From the NCBI GenBank assembly GCA_017626035.1, contig JAGAJR010000021.1:1-64000 (forward strand): DNA of 64,000 nt, given 5' to 3'. The DNA is from Alphaproteobacteria bacterium. GTDB lineage: Bacteria > Pseudomonadota > Alphaproteobacteria > RF32 > CAG-239. A model generated the notes under the pieces. The model was given only the letters and a program-made list of their open reading frames with translations. It searched no databases and was not told the origin of the DNA. The position numbers were made by a program, and so were the translations under genes. Shown here one piece after another: positions 35,403 through 62,180 of this stretch (positions within the stretch are counted from its first letter, which is position 1; every line of letters starts with the position of its first letter).

Positions 35403-35425
35403 AAGCCCCTTTTTGAGGGGCTTAA
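35403..35425. terminator. bidirectional terminator, end of flagellar operon and of HTH unit copy 1
   Basis: AAGCCCC-TTTTTGA-GGGGCTT. An equivalent hairpin sits at the same place in copy 2 (49265-49292). Confidence 0.8.
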
Positions 35426-35428
35426 ATT

Positions 35429-35707
35429 TTACTCTTTAGGCTTAGAAAGAAAGCCGGCGTAAACATGGAGTTGATAATAATTGGCCAGCTTTTGGATAAG
35501 TTTCCAGTTAACGGCTTCCCGCCCGATTTCCACATTGTCCAACTCTCTCTGCTTAATATGTAAATCCATACAGACAACGGAAGAATTTATTTTCCGCTTT
35601 TGGCGGATACGGAATAAGTGCATACCCAGAGAGCGTTGAATAGCTTTAGGAATAGATTTGTTTTCCGATTGATAGAAAAAATTAGTTTTGATTTTGTGTT
35701 CAGTCAT
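35429..35707 (-). CDS. small HTH protein, duplicated unit copy 1
   Basis: 92 aa and about 92% identical to the product at 49294-49572 (seven substitutions). Residues ~25-85 look like an XRE-type HTH: LGMHLFRIRQKRKINSS, then IKQRELDNVEIGREAVNWKL and IQKLANYYQLHVYAGF. The N-terminus is Lys/Asn-rich. The start is placed at ATG 35707 (MTEHKIK) because AAGGAG lies nine bases before it and the two copies agree from here; the in-frame ATG 14 codons upstream would overlap the leader terminator. It is preceded by a ~170-nt structured RNA. Target unknown. Confidence 0.85.
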   Translation of the reverse strand: MTEHKIKTNFFYQSENKSIPKAIQRSLGMHLFRIRQKRKINSSVVCMDLHIKQRELDNVEIGREAVNWKLIQKLANYYQLHVYAGFLSKPKE

Positions 35708-35736
35708 CTTTTCAAACTCCTTATTTTGTTTTGGTA

Positions 35737-35770
35737 AAACAAAACTCACCTTATTGAAAAATAAGGTGAG
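35737..35770 (-). terminator. intrinsic terminator/attenuator in HTH leader, copy 1
   Basis: On the minus strand CTCACCTTATT-TTTC-AATAAGGTGAG (11-bp perfect stem) is followed by TTTTGTTTT. It lies between the leader RNA and the HTH ribosome-binding site, so transcripts must read through it to express the protein. Confidence 0.8.
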
Positions 35771-35904
35771 GGAGTTCAGAACTGTTAATACTCAGTCTGC
35801 ATTCTTCGACACATAAATATGCTTATACCTGCAGCTCCCTCAAGGAGGAGATATTTGTGTATTAATGGAGCTCTGACACTCCGCAGTCCACCTCTGAACT
35901 GCAA
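35737..35904 (-). ncRNA. structured leader RNA / candidate small RNA, copy 1
   Basis: A ~168-nt transcript is predicted from the TTGCAA promoter to the terminator. Stems in order are GCAGTTC/GGACTGC (35883-35902), AGCTCC/GGAGCT (35833-35873) enclosing a CTCCTCCTT loop, CATAT/ATGTG, ACTG/CAGT, and the terminator. Each has an equivalent in copy 2, some with compensating or wobble changes. The loop is complementary to the HTH ribosome-binding site. No known RNA family was recognised. Confidence 0.65.
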
Positions 35905-35909
35905 AAAGG

Positions 35910-35937
35910 ATGATAAAGCAAATAGATTAATTTGCAA
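35910..35937 (-). promoter_or_regulatory. promoter of HTH unit copy 1
   Basis: Minus strand TTGCAA (35932-35937), 16-bp spacer, TATCAT (35910-35915). The start point is predicted right at the first hairpin. Confidence 0.7.
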
Positions 35938-36024: not shown

Positions 36025-36101
36025 GTACCCGCCGGGTACCCAACCGAGGCGATCAAACTGGCCCAGTTTGGCCTCACCCGCCGGGTGTGGTCGCCGACCA
36101 C
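36025..36101. repeat. cluster of CGCCG-centred palindromes, unit boundary copy 1
   Basis: Four adjacent palindromes: GTACCCGCCGGGTAC (36025-36039), AAACTGGCCCAGTTT (36055-36069), CACCCGCCGGGTG (36075-36087) and GTGGTCGCCGACCAC (36087-36101). Three share the CGCCG core with different arms. The last is identical to a palindrome at 49889-49903. The last two fall inside the 3' end of ymdB and encode its terminal residues. None has a T-tract. Confidence 0.7.
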
Positions 36102-36943: not shown

Positions 36944-37108
36944 CCGAGGGAGCCAGCTGGCCGTATTAGTTTACATTCTTATCGAACCGCGTTTCACAAA
37001 GTGGGTGCCATTTGAACGAACCAGGATTCGCACAGGGACAGCTCCCTAAAAAATAATGTTGGCTCGGAAGATCTGCGGAAATACGAACCAGACAGCACTT
37101 CCCTCTAT
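36944..37108 (-). ncRNA. ssrS: 6S RNA
   Basis: A ~165-nt region directly downstream of zapA on the same strand, the conserved site of 6S RNA in Alpha- and Gammaproteobacteria. Its ends pair (AGAGGGA with TCCCTC), and the arms CTGTCTGG / CCAGCTGG and GGTTCG / CGGTTCG fit a long rod with a central bubble. 6S RNA mimics an open promoter and sequesters the housekeeping RNA polymerase. A TTGCAA -35-like box (37139-37144) lies inside the end of zapA. Limits are approximate. Confidence 0.8.
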
Positions 37109-49293: not shown

Positions 49294-49572
49294 TTATCCT
49301 TTAGGCTTGGAAAGAAACCCGGCGTAAACATGGAGATTGTAGTAATTTGCCAGCTTTTGAATGAGCTTCCAGTTAACCGCCTCCCGCCCGATTTCCACAT
49401 TGTCCAGTTCCCGCTGCTTAATCTGCAAGTCCATGCAGACAATGGAAGAATTTAACTTCCGTTTCTGGCGGATACGAAACAGGTGCATCCCTAAAGACCG
49501 TTGAATAGCTTTACGAATGGATTTGTTTTCCGATTGATAGAAAAAATTGTTTTTGATTTTGTGTTCAGTCAT
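49294..49572 (-). CDS. small HTH protein, duplicated unit copy 2
   Basis: 92 aa, with the same length and layout as the product at 35429-35707 and about 92% identity; changes are T8N, P20R, I/L and V/I in the HTH, H/Q, Q/N and the final E to G. The conservative pattern suggests both copies are under selection. The start at ATG 49572 follows GGAGTTT; the in-frame ATG ten codons upstream has no ribosome-binding site and overlaps the leader terminator. It is preceded by the same structured RNA and terminator as copy 1. Confidence 0.85.
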   Translation of the reverse strand: MTEHKIKNNFFYQSENKSIRKAIQRSLGMHLFRIRQKRKLNSSIVCMDLQIKQRELDNVEIGREAVNWKLIQKLANYYNLHVYAGFLSKPKG

Positions 49573-49596: not shown

Positions 49597-49630
49597 AAAC
49601 AAAACTCACCTTATTGAGAAATAAGGTGAG
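49597..49630 (-). terminator. intrinsic terminator/attenuator in HTH leader, copy 2
   Basis: Minus strand CTCACCTTATT-TCTC-AATAAGGTGAG then TTTTGTTT; the stem is identical to copy 1 and the loop differs by one base. Confidence 0.8.
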
Positions 49631-49767
49631 GGAGTTAGCAACTGCTTACGACAGTCTGCATTCTTCGACATATAAATATGCTTATACCTGCAGCTCCCCC
49701 ATGAAGAGGAGTTTCTTTTATCCGTAAGAGGAGCTGCTACACTCCGCAGTCCACCTCTGAACTGCAA
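49597..49767 (-). ncRNA. structured leader RNA / candidate small RNA, copy 2
   Basis: Same hairpin order as copy 1: GCAGTTC/GGACTGC (49746-49765), GCAGCTCC/GGAGCTGC (49690-49737, two pairs longer than in copy 1), CATAT/ATATG, GCA-ACTG/CAGTTGC, then the terminator. The second-stem loop contains AAACTCC, complementary to the GGAGTTT at the HTH ribosome-binding site. Confidence 0.65.
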
Positions 49768-49888: not shown

Positions 49889-49903
49889 GTGGTCGCCGAC
49901 CAC
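49889..49903. repeat. 15-base palindrome, unit boundary copy 2
   Basis: GTGGTCGCCGACCAC, identical to 36087-36101 of copy 1. It lies immediately after the stop codon of the upstream lipoprotein gene. Confidence 0.75.
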
Positions 49904-61740: not shown

Positions 61741-62144
61741 TGCAGGCGGCCGGATAGCTGCGTCTTGGAAAGGAAAATCCAAAGATGAGGAAAGTCCGGG
61801 CTTCAAGGGAACAGAATACCAGATAACGTCTGGCTGGAGAAATCCAAGGGAAAGTGCCGCAGAAAACATACCGCCCCGCATGCGGGGTAAGGTTGAAAAG
61901 GCGAGGTAAGAGCTCACCGCAAAGGCAGTAATGTCTTTGGCAGGGCAAACCCTGTTCGAAGCAAGACCAAGTTAGGAGGGCTTCTTTTTATGAGAATGTC
62001 ATACGGAGGGTTCCCAATCCGCTCCAGAGGTAGGTCGCACGAGCCGTCAGGAGACTGTCGGCCTAGATGAATAGCTATCGCTTTCGCCTTTGCTTTCCGG
62101 CAAAGGGGATGAAAGTACAGAACTCGGCTTATAGGCCGCCTGAA
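61741..62144 (+). ncRNA. rnpB: RNase P RNA (class A)
   Basis: The ~404-nt catalytic RNA of RNase P, which trims the 5' ends of pre-tRNAs. Conserved blocks are GAGGAAAGTCCGGGCTTC near the 5' end, GGTAAGAGCTCACCGC, CAGGGCAAACCCTG, AGGTAGGTCGCACGAG-type core sequence, and the 3' ACAGAACTCGGCTTATAGGCC. The ends close in a 9-bp P1 helix, CAGGCGGCC (61743) with GGCCGCCTG (to 62142), followed by a T-run that may terminate some transcripts. lpxC begins 36 bases later. Confidence 0.95.
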
Positions 62145-62180
62145 TTTTTTGCATTGGGCAAAGTGAAATGGGGATGTGAA

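Follow-up and report, generated by a model that had tools for sequence, protein, structure and literature searches.

A multicopy leader RNA family of alphaproteobacteria with covarying alternative helices and copy-specific paired segments, probably a bistable attenuator

T-box leaders are terminator/antiterminator leaders which are repeated within a genome and differ from copy to copy in an internal part, the codon for the tRNA. The RNA family described here is likewise a repeated terminator/antiterminator leader with a copy-varying internal part, but this part pairs inside the leader and the downstream genes are not amino-acid genes. In a search with all Rfam families, the T-box model had no match at the RNA of the window (the whole stretch of 64,000 nucleotides analyzed). 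The c-di-GMP riboswitches (GEMM) have a conserved core different from that of the present family, and we know of no barcoding among them. They can head surface-protein genes (e.g. PMC7423583), as the present RNAs do, while the window RNA has no Rfam match at the gathering score. Orphan riboswitch candidates with terminator/antiterminator platforms are reviewed in PMC7266159. The present family shares with them covarying stems and a conserved loop core, an antiterminator and a terminator which exclude each other, masking of the Shine-Dalgarno (SD) sequence in terminator-less relatives and several classes of downstream genes. It differs in its one to at least 139 copies per genome, often heading one paralogous family, in its randomised copy-specific helices, in a ligand that is only hypothetical and in having no Rfam match. 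A relationship with 6S RNA was rejected, as the window RNA has no RF00013 match and 6S RNA is a separate gene on the same strand about 1 kb upstream (36946-37101, - strand; RF00013, 59.5 bits).

The predicted RNA is about 165 nt long and runs on the - strand from 35902 to about 35737, from a promoter-like site to an intrinsic terminator (Table 1). The initial annotation had placed a candidate new RNA family, with covarying stems and an intrinsic terminator, at 35737-35904. Its coordinates agree with the terminator at 35770-35745 (-) with its TTTTGTTTT tail and with the promoter-like site, which is situated upstream and not downstream of the terminator. No promoter-like site for the HTH gene was found between terminator and gene at the window locus. 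The fold of the window RNA reached -61.6 kcal/mol (z = -5.3) and none of 200 shuffles was as stable. The covarying stems were also borne out, by strong covariation in larger alignments. In Rfam 15 no family matched the window RNA at the gathering threshold of its covariance model and the best sub-threshold matches under the lax threshold were at chance level (at most 17 bits). No description of the RNA was found in the literature within reach, PMC2864571 and PMC7266159 included.

Table 1. Features of the RNA locus, its downstream gene and the second copy in the window
Feature	Position	Strand	Remarks
Promoter-like site, TTGCAA-16 nt-TATCAT	35910..35937	-	-10 end 8 nt upstream of first hairpin (H1)
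H1, 8-bp hairpin, GAGG loop	35883..35902	-	stem identical in seven full own-genome copies
Segment a (GGAGU)	35878..35882	-	would pair with b' in state A, with local c in state B
P2v 5' strand	35869..35876	-	copy-specific
Segment c (AGCUCC)	35867-35872	-	putative local partner of a in state B
P3 5' strand (UUAAUAC)	35859..35865	-	copy-specific barcode helix, partner 35785-35791
P4 5' strand (a')	35845..35849	-	from fold and covariation
Segment b (UGAGGGAG), P4 3' strand	35835..35842	-	predicted antiterminator partner of b'
P5 hairpin	35797..35834	-	conserved internal loop AUAAG / CGAAGAA
S4 hairpin ACUG...CAGU	35781..35796	-	loop is the P3 3' strand
Segment b' (CUCCCUCA)	35767..35774	-	P2 3' end and first 4 nt of terminator stem
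Intrinsic terminator stem-loop, 11 bp	35745..35770	-	followed by TTTTGTTTT tail
Hairpin of terminator U-tract with AAAACAAAA, just 5' of SD	35724..35744	-	kept in many relatives
Shine-Dalgarno region AAGGAGUU	35715..35722	-	before HTH gene
92-aa Cro/C1-type HTH protein gene	35429..35707	-	monocistronic; hairpin 35403-35423 after it
Second RNA copy	49597..49765	-	core 49631-49765, then terminator
HTH gene of second copy	49300..49572	-	protein 93% identical

The nested fold is composed of H1, P2 (a:b' and the variable P2v), P3, P4 and P5. Compensatory changes were already seen in 14 of 42 pairs among seven copies of the own genome. In an alignment of 95 distinct RNAs, 95.8% of the cells were paired, against 67.3% after shuffling and at most 47% with slid partners; 988 cells were two-sided, against 308, and two-sided changes occurred in 32 of 36 pairs. 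H1 alone had 97.7% paired cells and two-sided change in all 8 pairs. Similar values were obtained for two more sets, one of 41 RNAs, most of them distant (94.7% paired), and one of 75 RNAs (95.5%). Because the alignments were fitted to the nested model, and not to the b:b', S4 or SD pairings, an all-against-all APC-corrected G-test was run. P3, P5, P2v and H1 took the top ranks, and b:b' and S4 pairs were among the high-ranked ones. The conserved unpaired letters are AUAAG facing CGAAUAA in P5 (a UAA/GAN-like family consensus of the internal loop), GGAG after P4, and, flanking the P3 3' strand, CUG on its 5' side and CAG on its 3' side. At A4 columns 174/203 of the P5 internal loop, 66 RNAs have A-U and 17 have G-G, a covariation which suggests a non-canonical pair.

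Family-wide helices are H1, P2v, P3, P4, P5, the ACUG/CAGU hairpin, the antiterminator and the terminator. Five stems had been proposed initially. These do contain covarying stems, but they are not a single fold, as the layout blends two states and lacks P2v and P3, the best-supported helices. Its fourth stem, ACUG/CAGU, is the hairpin S4 and is backed by covariation, while the second, AGCUCC/GGAGCU, is present in both window copies and was rejected as a general feature, being absent in the GGUGU subgroup.

Several helices compete with the nested fold. In the putative antiterminator b:b', the sequence NNNGGAG of the P4 3' strand can pair with CUCCNNN, of which CUCC is the 3' end of P2 and NNN the start of the terminator. 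In permutation tests, which ignore shared ancestry, the three extra positions gave 227 Watson-Crick matches against 131 ± 7 (maximum 155 of 2000 permutations), with GC, AU, UA and CG pairs all represented; in most G080 and G016 copies b:b' reaches about 10 bp (9.92 against 8.87 ± 0.14), and complementarity between b' and SD was 5.39 against 4.71 ± 0.10 and 4.89 against 3.95 ± 0.16 in two sets. The b':SD variants are AACUCC/GGAGUU, AGCUCC/GGAGCU, AACUUC/GAAGUU and AACAUC with GAUGUU or GGUGUU. At the window locus, b' together with the preceding GAA is complementary to the SD of the HTH gene. Compensatory variants of the S4 stem are CUGU/ACAG, CUAU/AUAG, CCGU/ACGG, CCAU/AUGG and CAAU/AUUG; S4 and P3, if formed together, would be a pseudoknot. 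The local 5' hairpin a:c varies as GGAG..CUCC, GGUG..CACC and GAAGU..ACUUC, and was recovered in the G-test on the distant set (A6 pairs 42-54 and 43-53). With the window copy folded up to the terminator loop, state A had -47.9 and the forced b:b' state -43.0 kcal/mol, which places state B 4.9 kcal/mol above state A before the 3' arm of the terminator is made, in energies which exclude pseudoknots. In the forced state a:c and S4 appeared too. The b:b' helix of this copy has -14.9 kcal/mol against -7.0 for P4.

On this comparative evidence, which is all from sequence and mostly from MAGs, the RNA is probably a bistable cis-acting attenuator or orphan-riboswitch-like leader. State A would have the 5' part (a, P2v, c and P3) paired along its length with the 3' part and P4 and P5 formed, and the complete terminator would stop transcription to give the RNA of about 165 nt. 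In state B, b would pair with b', the foot of the terminator would be lost and b' would be withdrawn from the SD, which it could otherwise mask; with the foot removed and the SD freed, the gene is proposed to be transcribed and translated. Sequence comparison supports the predicted helices of both states, the promoter-to-terminator layout and the alternative SD and terminator outputs. As in riboswitches, a conserved, covarying structured leader lies 5' of genes, and its expression platform has mutually exclusive helices by comparative evidence. The states presumably interconvert, state B being the likely ON state, and the invariant core (P5 internal loop, CUG and GGAG) may sense one common signal, a small molecule or protein. 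Regulated attenuation, as the initial annotation had suggested, is in line with the covariation of the antiterminator, the covariation of the SD with the P2 3' strand and the nearness of terminator-less relatives to the start codon. Against the bistable leader counts the overlap between b' and the terminator, which is only 1-4 bp across much of the family.

Most relatives have the terminator about 45-60 nt 5' of the start codon. The G147 and G278 relatives have no terminator; no more than about 25 nt separate b' from their start codon, and the SD is partly complementary. An ORF was found within 300 nt downstream of 185 of 205 distinct RNAs, usually 40-80 nt away. About 74 of these 185 encode small HTH proteins, 27 pilin-like proteins (Bundlin/PilS Pfam matches; nearly all sampled G016 copies) and about 53 exported proteins with no Pfam match (nearly all sampled G080 copies). 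The G080 loci L228-L296 encode some 50 sampled paralogues, exported proteins of about 160-185 aa (SATMTVTATIAHDVSLNV...). Every one has an RNA leader of its own, and those tested had no Pfam match. BspA-type LRR (LRR_5) and other exported proteins follow the RNA in G027, and OMP beta-barrels, opacity-type porins, lipoproteins and a formate/nitrite channel in other families. An HTH gene after the RNA, as first described, thus holds at both window copies and not as a family rule, given the pilins, LRR proteins, OMPs and lipoproteins elsewhere. From these gene types, one signal seems to act on surface genes and, in many genera, on a set of small repressor-like proteins as well. At L083 and L060 an intact RNA precedes an HTH frame which is very short or broken, so that the leader can persist longer than its gene. 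The RNAs of L146 (1190-1264) and L147 (1230-1308) have the same end sequence, which includes a CCACGCG..CGCGTGG hairpin and lies at contig ends; an IS200-type element may have taken the place of the gene there.

The terminated RNAs of about 165 nt could instead be the product, as multicopy trans-acting sRNAs whose genes are reached by leaky read-through only. Each copy has its own promoter-like site and terminator, intact RNAs precede the broken frames of L083 and L060, and tandem copies at L084, L146, L148 and L028 have no gene. Before each tandem copy at the first three loci a promoter-like site is present with the same spacing as in the window, which a pure leader would not need and which counts against the leader account; because of these promoters an sRNA role keeps some probability. 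It is nevertheless unlikely, considering the ORFs which follow so many of the RNAs at short distance, the covariation of the SD with b' and the terminator-less versions abutting the start codon. Further, the best-conserved segments between paralogues are internal and the variable ones are base-paired in cis. The attenuator is favoured over the sRNA because the antiterminator, S4 and b':SD helices covary too.

Binding of the leader by its own downstream HTH protein would suit most own-genome copies and the HTH share of the sampled genes, and the predicted fold of the protein is XRE/HipB-like. Such autoregulation was dropped as the downstream gene types are too varied: copies in G016, G080, G027, G147 and others head pilin, exported, LRR and OMP genes with no HTH gene adjacent, and the core of the RNA stays constant while HTH proteins fall to 25-37% identity. 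It is thus improbable. Still less probable is that the RNA is a repeat or mobile cassette, structured for its own spread and carrying the gene as cargo. The high copy number, the palindromic repeats beside the window copies and the position of several G054 HTH copies at contig ends are compatible with it, but no conserved ends or transposase were seen and the flanks vary by copy; spread alone also leaves unexplained that the P2v and P3 strands change jointly with pairing kept.

P2v and P3 are 62-70% different between paralogues within a genome, yet about 98-100% paired. Among the seven full own-genome copies, the pairwise difference was 0.00 in the H1 stem, 0.05 in the P5 loop, 0.68 in P2v and 0.62 in P3, where unrelated sequence would differ by about 0.75. 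The respective values were 0.31 (H1), 0.50 (P5 stem), 0.06 (P5 loop), 0.70 (P2v) and 0.65 (P3) in 57 RNAs of G080, and 0.29, 0.36, 0.10, 0.66 and 0.67 in G016. Variation was lower in G007 and G008, with only four sampled copies each. G080 possesses 47 distinct P3 strands among 59 copies, 98% paired, and its copies L245 and L266 differ by 83% in P3 and by 5.6% at other positions. The P3 strands are about 75 nt apart and both must change together. As they change jointly and the rest far less, point-by-point drift in step with the rest is insufficient; either selection favours codes that differ, or conversion homogenises the remaining parts and spares the code. Own-genome copies share P2v or P3 singly but not both, suggesting block exchange. 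To our knowledge such copy-specific compensated helices have no precedent in attenuators. Our preferred reading is that the codes may insulate paralogous transcripts against cross-pairing. More tentatively, the leader family could be self-addressed: in a set of dozens to more than 100 surface paralogues, each gene would carry the same switch with its own randomised paired code (P2v and P3), and either one common signal is read without cross-pairing or a terminated leader acts in trans on those copies alone which have its code. We consider this possible, though doubtful; if true, a system at the RNA level would let surface antigens be expressed individually or in a mutually exclusive way. The way in which the many co-expressed homologous RNAs avoid or use cross-pairing is a testable question posed by these helices.

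The distribution was analyzed with two models, R1 from the seven own-genome copies and the broader R2. R1 found the RNA in 27 of 55 genomes, in most of those searched from the family and in almost none from other families. With R2, 91 of 100 genomes of the order were positive, in all 15 genera and with 1 to at least 139 copies each. In the class, 20 of 289 genomes were positive, 16 of them outside the family, at E <= 0.001, where about 0.3 chance matches are expected per 289 genomes and model E-values are rough. The weakest of these matches, G176 and G343, are uncertain; G198/G408 (1e-21), G157, G215 and G322 are secure. Across the sampled phylum, 2 of 249 genomes were positive, own genome counted. 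Of the 150 best candidates scored per genome, 62 and 139 were copies of the RNA in two genomes, so that these are minimum numbers. With up to at least 139 sites in a genome of 1.6 Mb and with its high share of positive genomes in the order, the RNA is likely a main regulator in these bacteria, although Rfam 15 lacks it. Judging from genome size and related MAGs, the carriers appear to be gut-type alphaproteobacteria, and the family points to a signal controlling pilins, adhesin-like proteins and small repressors in uncultured members of this class.

The HTH protein of the window copy showed only sub-threshold Pfam HTH matches, while its relative at L046 is above the HTH_3 cut-off. Its AlphaFold model has a helical core (pLDDT about 90), for which HipB and restriction-controller proteins were top-ranked by Foldseek (probability 1.00, TM by target at most 0.8, E only 0.04-0.1), and the predicted fold is thus HTH_3-like. 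Paralogues in the own genome share 93-97% identity, and two or three further sites have more distant ones; nearly all relatives read have the same RNA upstream. The protein had no match in viral contigs, and a phage or plasmid element was dropped.

The two window copies, each directly 5' of an HTH gene, are 84% identical over 555 columns. Ten own-genome copies were found by covariance model, nine of them at sites similar at the DNA level. The tenth, L188 (contig 22, 62245-62409, -), is of a distant subtype and is the only one not before an HTH gene, preceding a gene of 413+ aa with no Pfam match. In L008 and L009 (contigs 6 and 21) the inner part of the RNA is swapped for about 250 nt with inner hairpins and inverted ends GCTAAGTAAAAAGC...GCTTTTTTACTTAGC, either an insertion or a different inner domain. 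The palindrome GTGGTCGCCGACCAC is situated about 100-200 bases upstream of both window copies (36087-36101 and 49889-49903). Similar palindromes, together with degenerate phrases such as CACTTACTCTCCACAGCTAAC, occur near the other own-genome copies L002, L004, L005 and L007 and form a small repeat family. The window also contains a class A RNase P RNA at 61742-62147 (+).
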